A DNA stretch of 64,000 nucleotides from assembly GCA_018818835.1 (NCBI GenBank), contig JAHIRD010000019.1, positions 1 to 64,000 of the forward strand, read 5' to 3'. The DNA is from Pseudomonadota bacterium. Its GTDB lineage: Bacteria; Desulfobacterota; Desulfobacteria; Desulfobacterales; Desulfolunaceae. The notes under the pieces are model-generated. The model did not search any database. It worked only from the letters and a program-made list of their open reading frames with translations, and was not told where the DNA came from. How positions within the stretch are numbered: position 1 is the stretch's first letter; each line of letters begins with the position of its first letter. Positions 12,137 to 38,789 of the stretch are shown one piece after another. The translations under genes were made by a program, and so were the position numbers.

Positions 12137-13217
12137 TGCTAACCCCCATCAGCAACCCGATACCGATCAATGTGGTGACCACCGAGGACCCCCCGTAGCT
12201 GATCAGGGGCAGCGGGACGCCGACCACAGGCATTAAACCCATGACCATCCCTATATTAATAAAGGCTTCCCAGAAAATCATGGCTGTAATGCCTACGGAA
12301 AGTATCGTTCCAAACGAATCCCTGGATTTATGAGCAATATTCAGGCCCCAGATAAATAAAAACATATAAAGAAGAAGCACGACGATTGATCCCAGAAAAC
12401 CCCACTCTTCGGACAGAACGGATAAAATGAAATCCGTATGCTGCTCAGGAAGAAAGGACAACGTGTTCTGGGTTCCTTTCAGATAGCCTTTACCTACGAG
12501 CATTCCTGAACCTATGGCGATTTTGGACTGAATGATATGGTAACCCGCGCCCAATGGGTCTCTATCCGGATTAAGAAAAGTCAATATGCGTTGTTTCTGG
12601 TATCCCTTTAAAAAAAACCAGCCCACAAGGCCTGTTCCCATCCCCGCAAACACGATGTAAACAAGGGATTTCCGTTCGATTCCCACAAAAAGGGTCATGG
12701 ATGCTGCAATCAGGACCACAAGCAAGGCCGTACCCAGATCAGGCTGTTTGACAATCAGAACAAAGGGCACAAGGACCAAGGCGGCTGGCCGGATAAGATC
12801 CCGAATGGTAAAACCCCGGCGGCTGGCGTTTCGTGAAAAAAAACGGGCCATCATAATGATGGTGCCGATTTTAACAAGCTCAGAGGGCTGAATGGTCACG
12901 GGTCCCAATACCAGCCACCGCCTGGATCCCCCAACCACTTTACCGAACACAAGGACACAGACCAGAAGAGCGATGCAGCAAATGAATATTCCTGGGGCCC
13001 ATCGCTCCAGATCCTTGTAGTTGATCATGAATATAACCGTCATCAGAAAGAATCCTGCTCCGAACCAGACCATCTGCCTGTAATAGAGAGACTGTTGCGC
13101 GGATACTCCCCCTGCGGTCACAGCACTGTACAAGATGATCAAACCGATACTCCCGAGTAGAAGCGTGATCCCCATAAGACCCCAGTCAAAATTTTCCGCA
13201 AGTCTTCGATCAAACAT
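12114..13217 (-). CDS. rodA: rod-shape peptidoglycan polymerase RodA
   Basis: RodA is the SEDS-family glycosyltransferase of the elongasome and works with PBP2. The 367 residues contain about ten hydrophobic segments and SEDS motifs such as QPSELVKIG, KQPDLGTALL, DFILSVLSEEWGF and VVGVPLPLISYGGSS. Its start overlaps the stop of mrdA by one base. The last eight codons also occur as a duplicated fragment downstream of the inserted repeat (11949-11977). Confidence 0.96.
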   Translation of the reverse strand: MFDRRLAENFDWGLMGITLLLGSIGLIILYSAVTAGGVSAQQSLYYRQMVWFGAGFFLMTVIFMINYKDLERWAPGIFICCIALLVCVLVFGKVVGGSRRWLVLGPVTIQPSELVKIGTIIMMARFFSRNASRRGFTIRDLIRPAALVLVPFVLIVKQPDLGTALLVVLIAASMTLFVGIERKSLVYIVFAGMGTGLVGWFFLKGYQKQRILTFLNPDRDPLGAGYHIIQSKIAIGSGMLVGKGYLKGTQNTLSFLPEQHTDFILSVLSEEWGFLGSIVVLLLYMFLFIWGLNIAHKSRDSFGTILSVGITAMIFWEAFINIGMVMGLMPVVGVPLPLISYGGSSVVTTLIGIGLLMGVSMRRYIKE

Positions 13218-15040
13218 CAGTCAGGATTCCTTTCAAGATATTGTTTTATAAGGTCTCTTGCAATGGGTGCCGCAGTACTGGAGCCATGTTCACCATGTTC
13301 CACCATCACACTCACGGCAATCCGAGGTGCCTCGGACGGGGCATAAGCCACAAACCATGCATGGGGTTTATGGTGCTCCGGACCGTCTTCGATATCGCTA
13401 TCAGACTGCCGCTTGCTGATCACCTGAGCCGTTCCTGTCTTACCTGAAATATCAATCTGTTTCAACCGGATCCCATGTGCTGTCCCATGGTTGTCCTGAA
13501 CCGTTTCCCACAAACCTTTTTTAACCATATCAAGGTATTGTTTGCTCACAGGAAGCCTGCCTACAATTTCAGCATGGTTCTTTTCAATGATTTGACCGTC
13601 CGCTGATTCTATCTGCTTTAAAAGTTGCGGTTTGTATCGGGTGCCTCCGTTTGCGACTGCGGCCATAAATGTGACCATCTGAAGTGGTGTGGCCAGATTA
13701 TACCCCTGACCGATGGCAACGGATAGGGTTTCTCCACCGTGCCAGGGCTTATTCATTTTCTTTTTTTTCCATGAGGACGTGGGTACCAACCCTGACGATT
13801 CATTATCCAGACTGATCCCGGTCCGGCTGCCCAGGCCGCTTGCCGTGGCATAAAAAGCGATTTTATCCACGCCCAGCTTCTGGCCCACCTGATAAAAATA
13901 AACATCACAGGATTCTGAAATGGCTTTATAGATGTCCACGGTGCCATGCCCTCCGTTTTTCCAGCATCGGTAGACCCTATTTCCGTAACGATGGTATCCG
14001 TTGCAGGTGAAGGTAAGAGTCTCATCGATGACCCCCTCTTCAAGCCCGGCAATGGCCGTAACAATTTTATAGGTGGAGGCCGGGGGGTAAACAGCCTGAA
14101 CCGCTTTGTTTTCCATGGGCCTGTCAGGATTGTTGATCAATTCGTCCCATTTTTTATAAGAGAGCCCCGTGACAAAATCATTCTGATCAAAGGTCGGGCT
14201 GCTGGCCATGGCCAGGATATTCCCGTTTGTAGGGTCCATGGCCACGACGGCCCCCACCTTATCGACCAGCTGTTTTTCGGCCACCTTTTGGAGTTCCTCA
14301 TCCAAGGTCAGATAGATATTGGTTCCAGGTTTGACATCAACAGTCTTAAGAACCCGGATCACCCGGCCTGTGGCGTCCACCTCCACCTGGCGCCCACCCC
14401 GGGTCCCGTGAAGCATATCTTCGAATTCCCGCTCGATTCCGTATTTCCCGATAAAATCCCCACCTTCAGTGCCGGGATATTTACCGCTTTTCAATTCGTT
14501 CAAATTGATCTCGCCAAGATAACCTAGAACATGGGCTGCGCTCCCTTTGTTAATATAGTGCCGAAAGGGTTTGACATTGATCACCACACCGGGCAGATCA
14601 AACTTATGGACTTCTATGGCAGCCAAAATATCCCGGCCCACATCCTGTTTGAGCAAAACCGGCTTATAAGGAACAGATTTTTTTTGTTTTTCAAGTCGTT
14701 CAAGCATCTCCTCCTGGGACATGCCCATATATCCGGCAAGACGATTCAATGTCTCCTCAACAGGCTTGGCATCCCGGGGTATGATGCTCACATCAAATGA
14801 GGGACGGTTGTCCACGATAAGTTCTCCACGACTGTCAAATATCAAGCCCCGTGGAGGATCAATGCTCTGGATACGGATGCAATTACTTTCGGAAAGGCGT
14901 CTGTACTCCTCACCTTCAATAATCTGAAGGTAAAAAAGACGAATCAACAGAAGGGAAAATGCAGCCATGATCACGAACACGGCTCCGGCAAGCCGTTCTT
15001 TGTACCAATCGTTATCAGGTGCATTCAGGTAAGTACTCAT
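13217..15040 (-). CDS. mrdA: penicillin-binding protein 2 (elongasome transpeptidase)
   Basis: This is the class B PBP that cross-links peptidoglycan during cell elongation. It has an N-terminal membrane anchor, a pedestal/dimerisation region and a transpeptidase domain with the STYK active-site motif, the SCD (SxN-type) motif and SGKTGTAQV (KTG motif). An in-frame ATG at 15082 would add 14 residues but lacks a ribosome site. AAAGGAAA precedes the ATG at 15040, so I use that start (607 residues). It is coupled to rodA by a one-base overlap. Confidence 0.95.
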   Translation of the reverse strand: MSTYLNAPDNDWYKERLAGAVFVIMAAFSLLLIRLFYLQIIEGEEYRRLSESNCIRIQSIDPPRGLIFDSRGELIVDNRPSFDVSIIPRDAKPVEETLNRLAGYMGMSQEEMLERLEKQKKSVPYKPVLLKQDVGRDILAAIEVHKFDLPGVVINVKPFRHYINKGSAAHVLGYLGEINLNELKSGKYPGTEGGDFIGKYGIEREFEDMLHGTRGGRQVEVDATGRVIRVLKTVDVKPGTNIYLTLDEELQKVAEKQLVDKVGAVVAMDPTNGNILAMASSPTFDQNDFVTGLSYKKWDELINNPDRPMENKAVQAVYPPASTYKIVTAIAGLEEGVIDETLTFTCNGYHRYGNRVYRCWKNGGHGTVDIYKAISESCDVYFYQVGQKLGVDKIAFYATASGLGSRTGISLDNESSGLVPTSSWKKKKMNKPWHGGETLSVAIGQGYNLATPLQMVTFMAAVANGGTRYKPQLLKQIESADGQIIEKNHAEIVGRLPVSKQYLDMVKKGLWETVQDNHGTAHGIRLKQIDISGKTGTAQVISKRQSDSDIEDGPEHHKPHAWFVAYAPSEAPRIAVSVMVEHGEHGSSTAAPIARDLIKQYLERNPD

Positions 15041-21662: not shown

Positions 21663-22235
21663 TCATTTGCTACCTTCGGAGATAGAATCGACATCCAGGG
21701 GAAAGGTATAGCCGGCGTCCCGATAAATGCTCTGGATGCGTAGCATATCATTCACTTTATTGTCCGTGGGGATCACTTCACCCAACCAGCGAGTGACTTT
21801 ATTTTCATTATCAAGATACCAGCAGATGATTGAGACATCCGCTTCTTTGGCAATATGCCAGAATCCGGTCTTGATTGTTCTCACACCTTTTCTCGTCCCT
21901 TCAGGAACAATGGCCAGGAGGAATTCATCCCGCTCTTTGAACAGATCCACCATCTGCCCCACGACACCCTTGGCGACGTTCCGATCCACGGGGATCCCCC
22001 CCATCATCCGCAAAAAACCTGCCATGGGCCCACGAAACCATTCTTTTTTGATCATGATATGGCCCGTTCGTTTGATGATTTTAAAGCCGGTAAATGCCCT
22101 GACTGTATCCATGTTCGTGGTGTGGGGAAAACCAATGAGCACATGTCTCTTTAAAAAATAATCGGGAATGGGTTCAAACCGCCAACCCATTATCGTATAC
22201 AAGAATCTTCCAAACAGACTCAATAGTGTTTTCAT
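21663..22235 (-). CDS. PlsC-like 1-acylglycerol-3-phosphate acyltransferase family protein
   Basis: The protein has the acyltransferase motifs HTTNMD (HX4D catalytic pair), GIPVDR and VPEGTRKG in the expected order. It probably transfers an acyl chain to a glycerol-phosphate-type lipid at the inner membrane. A further in-frame ATG at 22271 lacks a ribosome site, whereas GGGAG precedes the ATG at 22235, so I use that start (190 residues). This is close to the short bacterial members of the family. It is downstream of gene remnants (22377-22723). The exact substrate cannot be told. Confidence 0.85.
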   Translation of the reverse strand: MKTLLSLFGRFLYTIMGWRFEPIPDYFLKRHVLIGFPHTTNMDTVRAFTGFKIIKRTGHIMIKKEWFRGPMAGFLRMMGGIPVDRNVAKGVVGQMVDLFKERDEFLLAIVPEGTRKGVRTIKTGFWHIAKEADVSIICWYLDNENKVTRWLGEVIPTDNKVNDMLRIQSIYRDAGYTFPLDVDSISEGSK

Positions 22236-22376
22236 AAAACCGTCTCCCGTGGGTACCTGATCCTGATTCATACGGCGTTTTCTGCGTAAAAAAGCAGAAC
22301 GCCCCTAACAGGGCGGTTCTCCCCCATCCCCTAACCACGTGGAAAAACACGGAACGCCAAAATATTCAATTCATCC

Positions 22377-31576: not shown

Positions 31577-32458
31577 TTATATCAGTGCCGACTGATCCGG
31601 GGGAATGTAAGGAAACCGTTTGACGATCATGTCCAGAAGAAACCGGTCGATTTCTTCATAGGAGTATTTTTCGTCAAAGGTCATGCGCAGGGACATCATT
31701 TCAATGATCCCCACCATGGTATAGGAAAAAAGCTCCGGCTCGATGTCTCGAAATATTCCGGCATTGATAAGGGATCGCACTTCTTCAATCAAGGGTTTTG
31801 TCATATCCTCGTATGCTTTTTTAACCATATTCCCGGCCCAGACATCCCGGCTGGTCTCTGAACGAAGGCAATTAATAATTTCACTGTATTTTTGGTAATT
31901 TGCATAAAACACATGGGCCCTGATAAACATGCGGTTCAGGGGGTCTTTTTCATGCATGATGGCGTCCCTGAACCGAGTATTGATGTCCTCAAGCACATCG
32001 GTGACCACCGCTTCGAAAAGTTCCTGTTTGTTTTTAAAATAAATATAAAATGCACCTGTGGAGATTCCCAAGGCATGGGTAATATCATTGATGGTGGTTG
32101 TCCGGTAGCCTTTTTGGGAAATAATAGAAACCCCACCCCGGATGATCTGTTTCTTCCGAAGCAGCCTGGATGACCTTAATGGAGAATCCTCGCCATCCGT
32201 CCGAGGATCGATGAACGATTCCTTGCCGGACATTTCTCCGTTTGCAATCATTTTCTTGATAAAGCGCCCGGGCAGGTTTTTTTTCATTTTTGAGATAAAG
32301 TTGAGGCGAGCCACGTGACTTTCATTATAATAGCCCATGGTCTTACCCGTTTTATCCGGGGCATGCAGCAAGCCACTGCGGAGATAATAGTGAATGGTGG
32401 TTCTGGGCACTCCCGTTCGTGTGATCAGGTCACTTATTCTCATTGATGATTTTTTCAC
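31577..32458 (-). CDS. MerR-TetR fusion transcriptional regulator
   Basis: The protein joins two DNA-binding modules. An N-terminal MerR-type winged helix (MRISDLITRTGVPRTTIHYY, GLLHAPDKTGKTMGYYNESH) is followed about 60 residues later by a complete TetR helix-turn-helix (GGVSIISQKGYRTTTINDIT, ALGISTGAFYIYFKNKQELF) with its helical ligand domain. I place the start at GTG 32458, preceded by AGGGG. A longer frame to 32518 would run through a promoter-like sequence. It is divergent from the RND locus, which it most likely regulates. Confidence 0.85.
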   Translation of the reverse strand: MKKSSMRISDLITRTGVPRTTIHYYLRSGLLHAPDKTGKTMGYYNESHVARLNFISKMKKNLPGRFIKKMIANGEMSGKESFIDPRTDGEDSPLRSSRLLRKKQIIRGGVSIISQKGYRTTTINDITHALGISTGAFYIYFKNKQELFEAVVTDVLEDINTRFRDAIMHEKDPLNRMFIRAHVFYANYQKYSEIINCLRSETSRDVWAGNMVKKAYEDMTKPLIEEVRSLINAGIFRDIEPELFSYTMVGIIEMMSLRMTFDEKYSYEEIDRFLLDMIVKRFPYIPPDQSALI

Positions 32459-32488
32459 TTTTCTGTCCCCTGTCATAGCTGTATACTT

Positions 32489-32518
32489 TTTATATATCCT
32501 ATTCAAATATTCCGTCAA
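32489..32518 (-). promoter_or_regulatory. Candidate promoter of the MerR-TetR gene
   Basis: On the minus strand TTGACG (32513-32518) is followed after 18 bases by TATAAA (32489-32494), about 30 bases before the GTG start at 32458. It sits in the shared spacer with the divergent RND gene, so regulator binding here could affect both directions. Confidence 0.5.
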
Positions 32519-32738
32519 GCAGATATCTCAGAAAGAGCACGATGGCATCAAAACCTATAGCTACTTAATATAACAGGATTTTAAATATTAATGGGTGGCC
32601 ATATATTATTTGACATTTGTTTAAAACAAAGATATCCATTCCCAGAGATATGAATATGTCTTCACATCCGAAATCCGGATAGAGCACCACCAGTTAGGAT
32701 TTCCTTATCAATTTTTTTTCATCCCAGGATGGCTCCTC

Positions 32739-35108
32739 GTGAATTCTTTAATAGATCGTATTGTTCGTTATTACAAATATATAGCTATTATTATAATCAT
32801 CTGTACCCTTCCCTTTGGCTATTTTTACACAAAACAGCGTTATTTCAACCATGTGAACATGTTTTTTGAAAAAGATGATCCGGCCATCGTGTTTTACAAA
32901 CAGTTCCAGGAGCAGTTCGGCAATGACGAGATTGCTGCCATTGTATTCAAAGCCGATGATATTTTCACCCAAAAAAACATACGCATTATCCAGGGCATTT
33001 CCCGGGCGGCCAAATCCATGGATGGCGTGGAGACCGTGATGAGCCTGACCGAGGAGGAAATTCCAAAGGGTAATGGTGACACGGTGGATTTTCTCAAACT
33101 TGTACCCGATGATATGGAACTTAACGATGCCAATCTGGAAACCATCCGGAAAGAATGTATGGCTCATCCTTTGGTTGTGGGCAATCTTATCTCAAAGGAC
33201 GGCACCACCACAGCCATCATGATTGAACTTGCCCCCATCGCGTCCAACGAACTCAAAAAAGACATTCTCAACACCCTGCGTGACAAGGCTGAACAAGTGG
33301 CAGGAAACAACGCGACCCTCTATTATTCGGGGGGGCCCTACCTTGAGGTGGAGATCGAAGGACTCACCACGTCGGATAATACACGATTCACGCCCATCAC
33401 TTTTTTCATCATTATCTTCGTGGTGTACATGATGCTCAGAAATTTCACCCTGTCCATTCTTGGCCAGATCAATGTCTCGGTGACAGTTATCTGGGGCATC
33501 GGCTTTCTGATCATGTGCGGGGAAAGCATCAATACGGTCACCGTGATTATCGCCCCGGTCCTTTTGGCCATCTCCATTGCAGACTCCATACATATCCTGT
33601 CATATTATAAGGAGTGCTACCGAAAAAATGGCGGCCACCACAAAGAAGCTGTGGCTGAAGCTGCCAAAACCCTCTGGTTTCCCTGCCTGTTCACCAGCAT
33701 GACCACGGGCATCGGTTATCTTTCCTTTGTGACCACCACGGTCAGGCCCGTGAAAATTGTTGGAATTTTTACATCCATTGGCGTGATGACCGCCTTTATC
33801 ATGACCATTGTTTTTCTTCCCACCCTGATGATGGTTTTCAGGAAACGCATCGAAAAAGGCCTTGATCTAAAAAAGCAGCACACACCTATTTTCAAAAAGG
33901 ACTATTTTATGTCAGTCCTCGTTTTTTTAGGCGAGAACGTTACCCGGCACTACAAAATCATCAGTGTCTTTTTTTTGCTTATTACCATCATAACCTCCCT
34001 GGGCATTCTCAAGCTCCGATTCGAAACAGACTTTGTCAGCTATCTGAAAGATGACAATAAAATCAAGCAGGATATCCGATTTATTGAAGACAACATCCGG
34101 GGAACCGTGCCCGTGGAAGTTGTTTTTGAGGCCACATCGCCCCAGTTTGATTTCACCCATCCTGAAAGCCTCAAGCTTATCGAAAAAATCCAGATCGATG
34201 TCATGGACGAGATGAGTGGACGATTCACCACCTCTTTTTCCGTGGCCGATTATATCAAGGAAATCAACCGGGCCTTCAACGAAGGGAATAAGGCCTTTGA
34301 TATCATCCCGGACAACCCGGAGGATGTGGTGGATTATTTTGAGATAGGAGACGAGAGTATCCTCAAGCGGCTCATCTCTCCGGACAGGATGAAAACCCGC
34401 ATCTCCTTTGCCTCCTGTTTCGGTTCCACCACTGAGTCCAAGTCCTTTACCCATTACATGGACAACCATGTAAAGCCCCTTCTGGGGGATCGTATGACAT
34501 ATACATTCACAGGCCTTTCCGCCCTTTATATCACCATGGACAAAAACCTGAAAATCAGCCAGGCTCGAAGTTTCGGTTCGGCATTCGTTTTGATATTCAT
34601 CATGATGTTTTTTCTATGCAAAAATGTGAAACTCACGGTGATCAGCATGATCCCCAACCTCTTCCCCATCTTCGTGACCCTGGGCATCATGGGCTGGCTT
34701 GATATCCCCCTTGATGGATCCACCATCATGATTGCAAGTGTAACCATAGGTATTGCTGTGGACGATACCATTCATTTCATCACCTGGTTCCGAAGAAACT
34801 CCCTGGCTGGAATGGATACACAATCAGCTGTCATAAAAACGTTCAAGGACACGGGAAAACCCATTGTCATGACATCCATTATTCTATGCATTGCCTACTG
34901 TGTACTGATAACAGGATCGGTGAAGCCCATCATTGCCTTTGGAGCTTTGGCCGGATTGGCCATGTTTTTCGCTCTTCTCGGGGATCTGTTCATCCTCCCG
35001 TCTCTGATACTGGTATTCAAACCAGCCATCCGTTCCCCCCGGTCTACCATAAGACCTGTGGAGGCTGTTTCCAATGAAAAAAAACTCCTTTTTGAAACAA
35101 TGGATTAG
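32739..35108 (+). CDS. RND superfamily transporter (MMPL/HAE-3 type)
   Basis: The 789 residues have the two-fold RND layout. There is an N-terminal membrane helix (about 12-30), a periplasmic domain, a cluster of helices around residues 220-370, a second lone helix (about 410-430), a second periplasmic domain and a final helix cluster (about 610-770). The paired motifs ADSIHIL and VDDTIHF, each in a helix, match the proton-relay region of SSD-type exporters. Proteins of this class export lipids or hydrophobic molecules. The GTG start lacks an obvious ribosome site. It leads a likely four-gene operon. Confidence 0.9.
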   Translation: MNSLIDRIVRYYKYIAIIIIICTLPFGYFYTKQRYFNHVNMFFEKDDPAIVFYKQFQEQFGNDEIAAIVFKADDIFTQKNIRIIQGISRAAKSMDGVETVMSLTEEEIPKGNGDTVDFLKLVPDDMELNDANLETIRKECMAHPLVVGNLISKDGTTTAIMIELAPIASNELKKDILNTLRDKAEQVAGNNATLYYSGGPYLEVEIEGLTTSDNTRFTPITFFIIIFVVYMMLRNFTLSILGQINVSVTVIWGIGFLIMCGESINTVTVIIAPVLLAISIADSIHILSYYKECYRKNGGHHKEAVAEAAKTLWFPCLFTSMTTGIGYLSFVTTTVRPVKIVGIFTSIGVMTAFIMTIVFLPTLMMVFRKRIEKGLDLKKQHTPIFKKDYFMSVLVFLGENVTRHYKIISVFFLLITIITSLGILKLRFETDFVSYLKDDNKIKQDIRFIEDNIRGTVPVEVVFEATSPQFDFTHPESLKLIEKIQIDVMDEMSGRFTTSFSVADYIKEINRAFNEGNKAFDIIPDNPEDVVDYFEIGDESILKRLISPDRMKTRISFASCFGSTTESKSFTHYMDNHVKPLLGDRMTYTFTGLSALYITMDKNLKISQARSFGSAFVLIFIMMFFLCKNVKLTVISMIPNLFPIFVTLGIMGWLDIPLDGSTIMIASVTIGIAVDDTIHFITWFRRNSLAGMDTQSAVIKTFKDTGKPIVMTSIILCIAYCVLITGSVKPIIAFGALAGLAMFFALLGDLFILPSLILVFKPAIRSPRSTIRPVEAVSNEKKLLFETMD

Positions 35109-35394
35109 GAATAATCGATCATAATACTCATCAATCACATCATGCTTGTGATACTGTATACGAACTGCATACCATCTTCATCCATCAGTTCGAGGAAATT
35201 TCCTGGGTTTCCAACCCCTTGCATTTTTTCTCATTTCCATCATACATGTTTGTAATTACAGATTAATAATTACATAAACCGAAAGATAGCATTTGACATT
35301 TAAAGGAAACGAAGGTATCCATTCTACACATGAAGACATATTCATAAGTCACACACAATCACTGCATCACCGAAACAATCACATAGGATTTCAA

Positions 35395-36816
35395 ATGATT
35401 GCATCGTCTGCGAAAAGGACATTTTGTTGTTATCTGGGCCTGATCTTTCTCTGCCTGACCGTTTCCGTTTCAACTGTTTCCGGAGATGAACCCGAATTGA
35501 CCAAGGAAGGTTTCCTGGAGTTTGAAAATCTCTTCCAGGTTGAGCACAGGGATTCCACATTTGATGAAGCCAATAAAAAAAACGAGCTCAGGGGACATTT
35601 AAAACTTCGATACGGAACAGATGCCCTTCACGTGTTCATGGCACCGGATATCTATCTTTCCTCGTCTTTTTTCAGGGACGATAAAAAGATTTATCCCTAC
35701 AGTTCGGACTCCAATGTATCCCGAAATCTCAAGATATCCGGAGAATCGGCTGAACTTTCCCTGAACGAATTTTATGTCCATTACAGCACAGACCGGCTCC
35801 GGATCCGGCTGGGCAACCAGATTTATGGTTGGGGCACAGGGGATGTTTTCAATCCCACCTCCTATTTCAACCCCTATGACATGCGTGAATCCTTTTACAA
35901 AGACGACGATGAATACAAGGAAGGTGTCTTTTCCCTTTCCGGCATGCTGTTCATGGGATCCTCAAACCTGGAACTGGTGATGGTGCCATTCCATACACCA
36001 CCAAACCTGGCTAAAAACGGCAGCTACTGGCATGTTAAAATTGACAACTACCCTATGCCTATTATCCTTGATGATCCCCAGGAACTTGATCCTGAACTTT
36101 CCAATGCAGCATTCGGGGCACGGCTGACATCCACCATACTCAATACGGATCTCTCAGTCAGTGTGTTCCATGGGCCGGACACGGACCTCTTGTATGTTCC
36201 TGTCCGGACTCTGATACAAGAAGGTTCACCGGTTTCCGTCGAGGTAGAGGCCCGGAGTAACACCATCACCTACTTTGGCATGGATTTTTCTAAAGCAATC
36301 GACACCTTTGTCATACAAGGTGAAGCTGCGTTCTCCCCAAATAAACCGACCACGGTGGACCAGTCAGGTGTCGCTGATGATGACTTTGTCCTTCCCTTTG
36401 AAGTGGATACAGCGCCTTATTTGTCCTATACTCTGGGTTGCAATTATTTTATCCCTCTCTACAAACTCCTTGAAGATCACGAAGGAGATACGGTCCTGAC
36501 CCTGGAGTGGTTTCAGAGTTTTTTTTTAAAGGACGGATATTCGCCCCCCATGATCACGGATCTTTTCATCATGCGCCTTGAAGACAGCTATTTTGATAAC
36601 CATCTCTCATTGTCCATTTCGGGGGTGTATGATACCAAACAAAAGGGATACACCCTTTGGCCCAAGATCGGATACGATTTTCTCAATGGATTTTCCACAA
36701 ACCTATCCTACATCCACATTGAGGGAGAAAGTGATTCGAGAAACAATACTGCCTCGATATTTTACTATTTCAGAAACAACGACAGCCTTATATGGAAGGT
36801 ACGTTATGCGTTTTAG
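35395..36816 (+). CDS. outer-membrane beta-barrel protein (DUF1302-like)
   Basis: A signal peptide (about 1-28) is followed by a sequence of alternating polar and hydrophobic residues ending in Phe (VRYAF), as outer-membrane barrels do. Segments such as LRIRLGNQIYGWGTGDVFNPT and YFNPYDMRESF recall DUF1302-type barrels. An upstream in-frame ATG (35293) would bury the signal peptide after 34 residues, so I use 35395 (473 residues). Its place between the RND exporter and the LolA-like gene suggests it is the outer-membrane end of the same export path. Confidence 0.78.
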   Translation: MIASSAKRTFCCYLGLIFLCLTVSVSTVSGDEPELTKEGFLEFENLFQVEHRDSTFDEANKKNELRGHLKLRYGTDALHVFMAPDIYLSSSFFRDDKKIYPYSSDSNVSRNLKISGESAELSLNEFYVHYSTDRLRIRLGNQIYGWGTGDVFNPTSYFNPYDMRESFYKDDDEYKEGVFSLSGMLFMGSSNLELVMVPFHTPPNLAKNGSYWHVKIDNYPMPIILDDPQELDPELSNAAFGARLTSTILNTDLSVSVFHGPDTDLLYVPVRTLIQEGSPVSVEVEARSNTITYFGMDFSKAIDTFVIQGEAAFSPNKPTTVDQSGVADDDFVLPFEVDTAPYLSYTLGCNYFIPLYKLLEDHEGDTVLTLEWFQSFFLKDGYSPPMITDLFIMRLEDSYFDNHLSLSISGVYDTKQKGYTLWPKIGYDFLNGFSTNLSYIHIEGESDSRNNTASIFYYFRNNDSLIWKVRYAF

Positions 36817-36899
36817 CATTAACCGGAATATACGATTTCAGTGGTATAAGGATTTATATTCAACCGTTATTTCATAATTATAAAGATTAAGGAGCCATT

Positions 36900-37640
36900 A
36901 TGAAAAAAAACATCCTATTCATCATTTTCTTGATTCTCTTCAGCACCCAGACAGTTCTTGCACTCACCGCCAGGGAGATCGTTGAAAAAAGTGACAATCT
37001 CCCCCAGTCGACCACAACAATGAGCGACATGAAAATGAGCATACACTCAGGTGGAAGTATCATTGATAAAGAATTCAACCTGGAAGCCGTGGAAACTGCA
37101 AAAAACGACAGTAAAACCTTAATCACATTCACCAAGCCCTCCAAATTAAAACTACTGACCCACTCCCATCCGGACAAGGAAGACGACCAGTGGCTGATGA
37201 TGTCTTCGGGAAAAGTCAAACGAATCACCGCATCGGGCAAGGAAAAATCCTTTGTCAATTCTCATTTCTCTTATGAAGACCTCTCTTCCCGAAAAATCAA
37301 TGATTACACCTACACCCAACTATCGGACGAGACAACCCTGACTTTTCCCTGTTACCGCATTGAAGGCACCCCTACAACAAAAGACAATGTCTACGACAAA
37401 GTCATTTTATATGTACGCCAGAAGGATTTTTTTGTTGTGAGGATCGACTTTTTCAAAAAAGGTAAATATTTAAAACGTCTTGAAAATCATGACATTCGAG
37501 TGGTTGACGGCATCCTTACCCCCTTTGATGTCCGCATGATCGAAACCGATGATAAGGAATGGACAGGCCTTCATATTGCGTCTATCACTTACAATCAGGA
37601 AATCAGCAGTTCCAAGTTCAATAAAGAGGCTTTAAGATAA
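36900..37640 (+). CDS. LolA-like outer-membrane lipoprotein-sorting protein
   Basis: The 246 residues have a signal peptide (about 1-21) and the beta-rich fold of the outer-membrane lipoprotein-sorting family that is related to LolA (ITFTKPSKLKLLTHSHPDKEDD-like region, VKRITASGKEKSFVNSHFSYEDL). Proteins of this kind are often encoded beside RND exporters and may shuttle lipid through the periplasm. A good ribosome site (AAGGAG) precedes the ATG. Its partners are the RND transporter and the barrel protein upstream. Confidence 0.82.
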   Translation: MKKNILFIIFLILFSTQTVLALTAREIVEKSDNLPQSTTTMSDMKMSIHSGGSIIDKEFNLEAVETAKNDSKTLITFTKPSKLKLLTHSHPDKEDDQWLMMSSGKVKRITASGKEKSFVNSHFSYEDLSSRKINDYTYTQLSDETTLTFPCYRIEGTPTTKDNVYDKVILYVRQKDFFVVRIDFFKKGKYLKRLENHDIRVVDGILTPFDVRMIETDDKEWTGLHIASITYNQEISSSKFNKEALR

Positions 37641-37663
37641 ACCTGTCCGATACAAGCCATGAT

Positions 37664-37703
37664 CTTTGGCCGGATGTGAAGGACATAAAAACATCCGGTC
37701 AAA
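37664..37703. repeat. Core-only relative of repeat family A
   Basis: TTTGGCCGGATGTGAAGGAC and a matching right arm (ACATCCGGTCAAACA) form an imperfect palindrome like the core of family A (TTTGGCCGGGCGTGAAGGC and its complement arm), but without the terminal GATGAACTCG/CGCCATC motifs. It lies just after the LolA-like gene. It might also work as a stem that slows or ends transcription. Confidence 0.5.
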
Positions 37704-37862
37704 CATAAAGAAAGGAGGTCTTTTTTTACACGACCTTCACCATTTAATGACAACATAAACATCTGTCACCCATAAAAACCTTGTTAAAAGGCACAAAAAA
37801 CTATAAATAAAATTCTTCTTGGAAAGGTATGCTCTTAAGGAAAGTAAATAGGGAGGAATGGC

Positions 37863-38789
37863 GTGCGTATTCTTGAAATGGCCTACGAATTGCTGGTTAT
37901 CTCAGTGGGTGTCTTATTGTACGGGTTATCCATGATTCCCGGATATTTACTGATACAATGGGGGCATGGGCTGGGCTTGCCCTGGGTTGTTTTCACTTAC
38001 CCGACCGCCTTTTACCTGTTCATCATCACCCTGATCCTCCTGGCCGGAACCGTCAAACGGCTCTGCCTGCCCCCACTCAAACCCGGGACATACAAATTCA
38101 ACAAAGACAAACATGTCTTTACCTGGTTTTTGAGCAGGACCATCACAGAATACGTTCTCATGCCCTTTAACCGGGTCATTTTCACCAACGATCTTTTGCG
38201 GTATACCTGCCTGAGACTCTTCGGCGTTAAATTGGATTACAGTTCCGGGATTTCCAGTTCCTTTATCAGCGACCTCGAACTCTTGTCATTCGGGAAAAAC
38301 TGTATGATCGGGGGATGGGCCATCCTCTATGGACACATTGAACCTGAACCGGGGACGGTCATCCTTGCACCCATATCCATCGGGGACAATACCCTGATCG
38401 GAGCCAGAGCCAACATCACGTGCGGAAGCAGTATCGGCAACAACACCATCATCGGATTCGGTGTTGTCATGGGCGTGAACTGTAAAATCGGAAACAGATG
38501 TAATGTGGGCTACATCACCCATATGGGCCACCAGATTTTAATCGAGGACGATGTCAAGGTGGGCAAATACTGCAACCTGGGCAACGGTGTCAAAATCCGA
38601 ACCGGCATCAAGCTGCCCGACTATTCCATGGTCCCGGATTTTACCACCATTGCGACCCAGGACTTGGCCGAGACCTTCCGTTCTGTCAGAATATCCGAAA
38701 TCCAAGGACCCGGAATGGCGACTCAACACCCTCCCCGTCGGCCCCAGGTCTTTATCCGGTCCGGCTCAAGTTCCTCCAGTAATACATAA
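37863..38789 (+). CDS. membrane-linked left-handed beta-helix acyltransferase
   Basis: The 308 residues begin with two or three hydrophobic segments (about 10-65), then an amphipathic region, then hexapeptide repeats (about 140-245) such as IGDNTLIGARANI, IGNNTIIGFGVVMGVNCKIG and VKVGKYCNLGNGVKI. This is the fold of transferases moving acetyl or longer acyl groups. The GTG start is fixed by GGGAGG a few bases upstream. Its last 67 bases overlap the 3' end of the convergent hydrolase gene. The acceptor is unknown, though linkage suggests an envelope lipid or glycan. Confidence 0.82.
   Translation: MRILEMAYELLVISVGVLLYGLSMIPGYLLIQWGHGLGLPWVVFTYPTAFYLFIITLILLAGTVKRLCLPPLKPGTYKFNKDKHVFTWFLSRTITEYVLMPFNRVIFTNDLLRYTCLRLFGVKLDYSSGISSSFISDLELLSFGKNCMIGGWAILYGHIEPEPGTVILAPISIGDNTLIGARANITCGSSIGNNTIIGFGVVMGVNCKIGNRCNVGYITHMGHQILIEDDVKVGKYCNLGNGVKIRTGIKLPDYSMVPDFTTIATQDLAETFRSVRISEIQGPGMATQHPPRRPQVFIRSGSSSSSNT

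Follow-up and report, generated by a model that had tools for sequence, protein, structure and literature searches.

Positions 31577 to 38789 of the window (the whole 64-kb stretch analysed here) encode a fusion of a MerR head with a TetR-type protein, an RND pump, an outer-membrane barrel, a LolA-like periplasmic carrier, and a membrane-linked hexapeptide acyltransferase. An earlier note on this DNA had placed the last four in this order on one strand, with the regulator divergent from them, and our open reading frames (ORFs) and family matches agree. Each of the five ORFs is confirmed, together with its strand and its place in the order, and all five proteins exceed curated Pfam cut-offs (MerR_1 and TetR_N, MMPL, DUF1302, LolA_like PF17131, and Hexapep). 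Here, we describe a two-part control element that stands before both the pump gene and the barrel gene, and we propose, with the chances about evenly balanced, that the locus forms a regulon devoted to a single hydrophobe transporter of three parts, working outward on an acyl-type or other hydrophobic cargo.

The pump matches MMPL at 3.3e-39, and its best NCBIfam model is HAE3 TIGR00921, at 201.6 bits, which is below that model's cut-off of 351.9. Its residues D282 and D675-D676, which we take to be the places of the RND proton relay, are invariant in seven aligned sequences, and its solved relatives by RND profile are MmpL4, MmpL5, HpnN, and AcrB-type pumps. The barrel matches DUF1302 with 30.5 bits (cut-off, 23.2). 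Its AlphaFold2 model (pLDDT 85.8) is mainly beta, with strands throughout, and finds AlgE and general porins as best Foldseek matches (TM 0.4-0.55); alignment against the sequences of solved structures gave no credible relative (best E, 0.13). The listed TTG start of the barrel gene, 35293, falls within the control element, and the likely start is the ATG at 35395, at the signal peptide. The carrier matches PF17131 at 1.4e-42 and has PDB 9tp6, 4z48, 3bk5, and 3buu as solved relatives. A tripartite HAE1 efflux system of the AcrAB-TolC type was considered and rejected: none of the eight proteins scanned for families matched a membrane-fusion protein or TolC-type family, and the barrel model resembles porins and AlgE. 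The intergenic gaps are not tight (RND-barrel, 286 bp; barrel-carrier, 83 bp; carrier-hexapeptide gene, 222 bp), and the last of them holds a 13-bp hairpin (z -4.4).

Alignment of the window with G017, a genome of the same family, reveals one strongly conserved block in the gap between the regulator and RND genes. The 30-bp box 1 is present twice in the window, against 0 expected in shuffles, and in the whole own genome (G000; 6.75 Mb, 334 contigs, 98% complete) it is found only at 32610 and 35293, allowing up to 3 mismatches in both searches. G017 has it once, before the pump, with the barrel and carrier genes close behind; the six other family genomes have 0 copies, and the reversed-pattern control likewise gave 0. 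In box 1, a -35 element (TTGACA) and a -10-like element (TATCCA) can be read on either side of a 17-bp spacer whose arms are TTTG and CAAA. Box 2 (ATGAA-N6-TTCAT) follows each box 1 after 7 to 12 bases, exact in two cases and with one mismatch before the window pump. In addition, a 16-nt word is common to the pump and barrel promoters, in inverted form, a coincidence seen in none of 3000 shuffles and in none of 3000 stretches drawn at random from the window. The palindromes after box 1 are unremarkable in strength, with 1285, 846, and 164 of 5000 shuffles as strong, and only the shared words are notable. This pairing of box 1 and box 2 before the pump and barrel genes, with box 1 nowhere else in the genome, is the new element reported here.

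In both genomes with box 1, the fusion regulator faces the pump. The five genomes that have the pump and no box (G082, G119, G146, G148, and G149) have a TetR-only gene 3' of the carrier, and a MerR-type fusion next to the pump was found in none of them. Because two genomes have both and five have neither, the fusion regulator and box 1 appear to come and go together. Furthermore, since box 1 stands before the pump and before the barrel, the pump and the barrel-carrier pair would constitute one regulon, with the acyltransferase outside it unless transcription reads through. The search of the window found no box 1 before the acyltransferase gene. The features are collected in Table 1.

Table 1. 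Genes and control features of the locus, in window coordinates
Feature	Coordinates	Strand	Remarks
MerR-TetR fusion regulator	31577..32518	-	313 amino acids from TTG; a later ATG may be the real start
Control box 1, copy A, 5' of RND gene	32610..32639	+	TTGACATTTN5AAACNAAGNTATCCAT
Control box 2, copy A	32650..32665	+	ATGAAN6TTCAT with one mismatch
RND pump, MMPL / HAE3-like	32739..35108	+	789 amino acids, GTG start
Control box 1, copy B, 5' of barrel gene	35293..35322	+	
Control box 2, copy B	35330..35345	+	Exact ATGAAN6TTCAT
DUF1302 outer-membrane barrel	35395..36816	+	Signal peptide judged by eye
LolA-like periplasmic carrier PF17131	36900..37640	+	By eye, signal peptide and no lipobox cysteine
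13-bp hairpin between carrier and hexapeptide gene, T-run further on	37665..37703	+	Possible unit end
Membrane-linked hexapeptide acyltransferase	37863..38789	+	Probably outside the system

The RND, barrel, and carrier genes form a conserved module. We scanned the neighbourhoods of the best 80 of 581 RND relatives, from named genomes, and found that 23 of them have PF17131-type and DUF1302-type genes on the same strand at distances of up to 6 kb, 4 have a carrier only, and 53 have neither. For the 34 loci flanked by 4 kb or more on each side, the counts were 11 with the full trio, 3 with the carrier only, and 20 with neither; L131 was scored as having no trio, though a second RND gene in that locus has one. 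Gene order within the trio is variable, and the hosts belong to several phyla. The pairwise identities of the three proteins co-vary (r 0.91-0.93 over 25 trios, with 0 of 2000 permutations as high), and r stays at 0.88 and 0.91 over the 19 trios left after dropping close relatives, with the proviso that shared ancestry alone also raises such values. This test leaves out L111, L114, L121, and L169 of the 23 named trios; the carrier alignment is without L092 and the tree without L093, whose contig is as long as G013 C123 (L077). Within the window's own family, seven of eight genomes have a close pump (1e-120), and in six of these it lies together with both partner genes.

The regulator combines two DNA-binding domains (MerR_1, 6.9e-14, 52.2 bits against a cut-off of 21.6; TetR_N, 1.6e-15), and both helix-turn-helix regions are retained in a 28-row alignment. 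Its AlphaFold2 model (pLDDT 83.9) has a MerR-like winged head with helices and strands, then a helix at residues 84-96, a linker at 96-111 with pLDDT below 50, and a full TetR fold. MerR-family proteins have a long C-terminal dimerisation helix and a MerR effector domain. This canonical layout was rejected for the window protein, as the model shows a TetR half in their place. With TetR_N and an all-helical ligand domain, the protein belongs to the TetR family, and the best solved Foldseek matches of this half include many regulators of the acyl-CoA type, such as FadR, SaFadR with lauroyl-CoA, KstR2, and AibR. The TetR acyl-CoA sensors FadR, KstR2, and AibR share the fold of the C-terminal half; to our knowledge, they have no MerR head. 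A search of the open literature found no paper naming a MerR-TetR fusion regulator, with most subscription journals outside its scope.

A profile of the fusion family (1e-35) matches in 19 of 395 genomes of the phylum, in G190 and G287 over the TetR half only. An acyl-CoA catabolic gene (thiolase, ChsH2-like, enoyl-CoA hydratase, acyl-CoA dehydrogenase, amidohydrolase, CoA ligase, or CoA transferase) lies within 5 kb of 18 of the 28 other fusions, compared with 143 of 1037 control ORFs, the catabolic queries being drawn partly from the fusion loci themselves. The controls were all ORFs longer than 250 amino acids in named RND loci that do not match the catabolic queries, overlapping ones included. 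A Pfam tally of the fusion neighbours (109 of 202 scanned) is led by thiolase C-terminal (14), acyl-CoA dehydrogenase (11), AMP-binding (10), enoyl-CoA hydratase (6), and amidohydrolase (6). The own genome holds three fusion paralogs within 20 kb (L047, G000:C184:1-19990), in a cluster with thiolase, CoA transferase, acyl-CoA dehydrogenase, and FadL-type genes, and a fourth on C87. In the tree, the window and G017 regulators group with each other (100/100) and are nested in a 15-row set (98/99), 9 rows of which have catabolic neighbours. The G017 regulator, the nearest relative, likewise faces a transporter, and Amidohydro_2, enoyl-CoA hydratase, and SDR genes lie convergent to the G017 trio. 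In G087, one fusion regulator (L181) is convergent at the far end of a catabolic run that begins with DUF1302 and DUF1329 genes, and a second (L056) is transcribed away from a YCF48-like gene and from the beginning of an RND-like gene that the contig end truncates; this RND-like fragment scores 34 bits to the window pump and 30 to the L182 pump and has no Pfam match.

These observations allow a broader reading, which we regard as doubtful, in which the fusion is a one-protein switch combining MerR-style activation with TetR-style derepression and used family-wide. The MerR head would sit on box 1 within the -35/-10 spacer, able to twist the promoter open, and the TetR head would hold box 2 and let go on an acyl-CoA-type ligand. 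The same logic would then apply in the family (28 others), at acyl-CoA catabolic and hydrophobe-transport operons of Desulfobacterales. If both heads do bind, such a switch would be uncommon among bacteria, and a short DNA fragment would suffice to test it. An operator common to the whole fusion family was not found. Palindrome counts in 11 divergent gaps are above simple shuffles in most gaps, not in all. The gaps of L048, L052, L053, and L054, which belong to one subclade and precede catabolic operons, contain a conserved block with TTGAC and a repeated TTTTCTRTAGA; this block is a candidate operator whose sequence is unlike the window boxes. Another set of four loci shows little. As a separate observation, the translated frames at about 12507-14620 of locus L051 repeat the word 'RAGAWIE' many times, an appearance that suggests the in-frame translation of a CRISPR array.

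The acyltransferase is not conserved with the trio. At 1e-15, two genomes have a match at each level searched: the family (8 genomes), the order (146), and the phylum (395). The second phylum match is 29% identical, and in G017 it lies on contig C15, with the trio on C8. On this distribution, we rejected it as a part of the system; it is probably not a member and would be a chance neighbour or a lineage-specific addition. The system proposed in the earlier note is accordingly narrowed. Its inner-membrane pump, periplasmic carrier, and outer-membrane barrel hold together and are not scattered in relatives, and the acyltransferase, scattered as described, drops out.

This bears directly on the export of an envelope lipid, the function that had been suggested at the outset, in which the trio would deliver a modified lipid to the outer membrane, with the hexapeptide enzyme acylating that lipid. 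In Escherichia coli, ApeM (RND), ApeL (LolA-like), and ApeN (LolB-like) have been proposed to place aryl polyene lipids in this manner (PMC8253772). The acyltransferase gene lies on the same strand, 222 bp downstream of the carrier gene, the hopanoid transporter HpnN is among the solved relatives of the pump, and a PF01553 acyltransferase gene (21666-22304) is located about 10 kb from the locus. However, the hexapeptide gene is unlinked in the only other family genome that has it, it lacks box 1, and a hairpin intervenes. In addition, no lipid-synthesis cluster was seen by eye among the window ORFs, and the regulator family keeps company with catabolism. We found no positive evidence for an envelope lipid as cargo, and the regulator family points to acyl-CoA catabolism instead; we therefore consider lipid export rather unlikely.

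Several described systems resemble the trio, so that the earlier view of the locus as a candidate undescribed system is not supported in the strong sense: AmeABCD (PMC6394551) and ApeLMN (PMC8253772) are described cousins. AmeABCD of Castellaniella defragrans consists of the HAE3 RND protein AmeD, the DUF1302 protein AmeA, the DUF1329 protein AmeB, and the YCF48-like AmeC; a deletion strain tolerates monoterpenes less well and accumulates more Nile Red, and the HAE3 family is described there as mainly uncharacterised (PMC6394551). Like AmeABCD, the window locus combines an HAE3-like RND protein, a DUF1302 barrel, and a periplasmic protein of the LolA superfamily, and the structures 4Z48, 3BK5, and 3BUU, named in the same source for the superfamily of AmeB (PMC6394551), are also matched by the window carrier. 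By family, the window barrel goes with AmeA, and 23 of 24 aligned barrels are DUF1302 proteins. Among the aligned carriers, 18 of 24 also match DUF1329; the window carrier, at 0.001, matches PF17131 only. The window locus differs in having a PF17131 carrier and a MerR-TetR regulator and in lacking AmeC: no YCF48-like protein was found among the locus genes, and the single match in the own genome, on contig C306, is weak. We rejected a place within the AmeD lineage, since the window RND stands apart from one clade (100/100) of 15 RNDs from the DUF1329 cassettes of the order, which stood in for that lineage in a tree whose program warns of long branches at the join. Altogether, the trio appears to parallel the AmeABCD hydrophobe exporter, yet to belong to a separate RND lineage without AmeC.

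The remaining systems are less similar. ApeLMN shares an RND protein, a LolA-like carrier, and a proposed lipid transfer to the outer membrane; its LolB-like DUF3261 protein replaces the barrel, and it lies within a biosynthetic cluster. DUF3261 had no match in the eight proteins scanned, and no aryl polyene cluster was seen by eye in the window. PG1175-PG1181 of Porphyromonas gingivalis differs in having ABC ATPases in the operon and in being induced by iron deficiency. HpnN, with MmpL4 and MmpL5, resembles the pump by profile; in contrast, HpnN is described as working without outer-membrane partners (PMC6394551).

In the order, DUF1329 ORFs (26 in all: 25 of 28 places, without G078 C135, G042 C35, and the first G027 C95, plus a short second ORF in L196) have YCF48-like and RND genes within 9 kb in 17 cases, a DUF1302 relative in 19, and at least one catabolic family in 13, figures for which there is no control. 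At L182, a complete DUF1302-DUF1329-YCF48-MMPL cassette lies 3' of genes of the thiolase, CoA ligase, and ChsH2-like kinds. Elsewhere, fusion regulators are found with Ame-type genes in rare cases. A DUF1329 gene of the own genome (L201, G000:C229, 6871-8277) has a DUF1302-like neighbour and no YCF48-like or RND relative within 9 kb.

The same families could also serve the uptake of a hydrophobic growth substrate, with the barrel and carrier importing a greasy acid and the regulator inducing them once its acyl-CoA forms. The Pseudomonas putida DUF1302/DUF1329 genes PP_0765 and PP_0766, plus PP_2018 and PP_2019, are reported as needed on Tween20 (PMC10866462). The G087 catabolic run holds DUF1302 and DUF1329 genes together with a fusion regulator, and a FadL-type gene is present in the fusion-linked cluster of the own genome, on C184. 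RND pumps are generally known to move substrates outward, which we count against uptake. Furthermore, none of the tested kinds of catabolic gene is in the window, and the AmeABCD data are read as export (PMC6394551). On balance, uptake is unlikely.

A further alternative is that the pump broadly exports toxic hydrophobes or drugs and has no connection with metabolism. The module is widespread, its neighbours are varied, and TetR genes are by far the most recurrent of them: TetR_N is the top family beside the trio, with 12 of 115 neighbours scanned (from a total of 182), one of the 12 being the G017 fusion, and the next family has 3. Against this, the eight scanned proteins include no member of a membrane-fusion or TolC-type family, the TetR half of the regulator resembles acyl-CoA sensors, and box 1 is placed solely before the pump and barrel promoters; together these points make general efflux very unlikely.

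We return to the dedicated three-part transporter as the preferred interpretation. In this model, a proton-driven RND pump would draw its substrate, an amphipathic acyl-type molecule or another hydrophobic one, from the inner membrane, the LolA-like carrier would ferry it across the periplasm, and the DUF1302 barrel would hand it to or through the outer membrane; we infer the outward direction, the cargo, and the proton coupling. The divergent MerR-TetR protein would control two promoters, that of the pump and that of the barrel and carrier, each marked by a promoter-like box 1 (-35/-10) and by a box 2 that is a palindrome of the size of a TetR operator. Its TetR half would most likely sense an acyl-CoA or a related intermediate, and both promoters would be released or activated together; binding of the regulator to the boxes is likewise inferred.

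Several points weigh against this model. The first concerns catabolism: a search with 12 catabolic query proteins against all window ORFs (1e-8) gave no match, and among the eight close loci (window, G017, G082, G119, G146, G148, G149, and L094) catabolic genes are near only two, G017 and L094, which reduced our confidence in the model. A catabolic family other than SDR lies within 7 kb at 3 of 27 trio loci (L046, L094, and L117). Because so few close or trio loci carry catabolic genes, the catabolic link comes mainly from the regulator family, and the Foldseek comparison of the TetR half had no control TetR. Only 1 of the 26 DUF1329 ORFs has a fusion regulator in the fetched stretch. As for the control element, the box 1 pattern was written from its three copies, which match by construction, and the informative part is their number and places; box 2 alone is unspecific, with 11 window matches (at most 1 mismatch) versus 4.95 expected. 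Finally, the module is not always complete. In G146 (L209, 7003-10487), the pump and carrier genes are adjacent, with no barrel recognised between them and a TetR-only gene following, and the nearest other RND relatives, with 38-43% identity in L076 and L078-L083, are without barrel and carrier genes (L077 is cut). Since such relatives lack these genes, the pump and its partners are separable in evolution.

The proposed regulon is a compact candidate, with one regulator, two marked promoters, and three parts, which can be tested as a unit. It also connects this candidate with a regulator family that in other loci is found beside genes of acyl-CoA breakdown. Combinations of an HAE3-type pump with LolA-like and DUF1302 proteins are found repeatedly across several phyla.

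Two minor observations concern other RND genes. Matches to the pump in plasmid records have about 25% identity or less, among the best 20 of 66. In the own genome, the RND gene of L083 (G000:C156, 2385-11754), whose product is 38% identical to the window pump, lies directly 3' of a 2299-amino-acid ORF that by eye is polyketide or fatty-acid synthase-like, and similar later genes are present in L082 (G013); this RND gene and the synthase-like ORF are possibly an export pairing.

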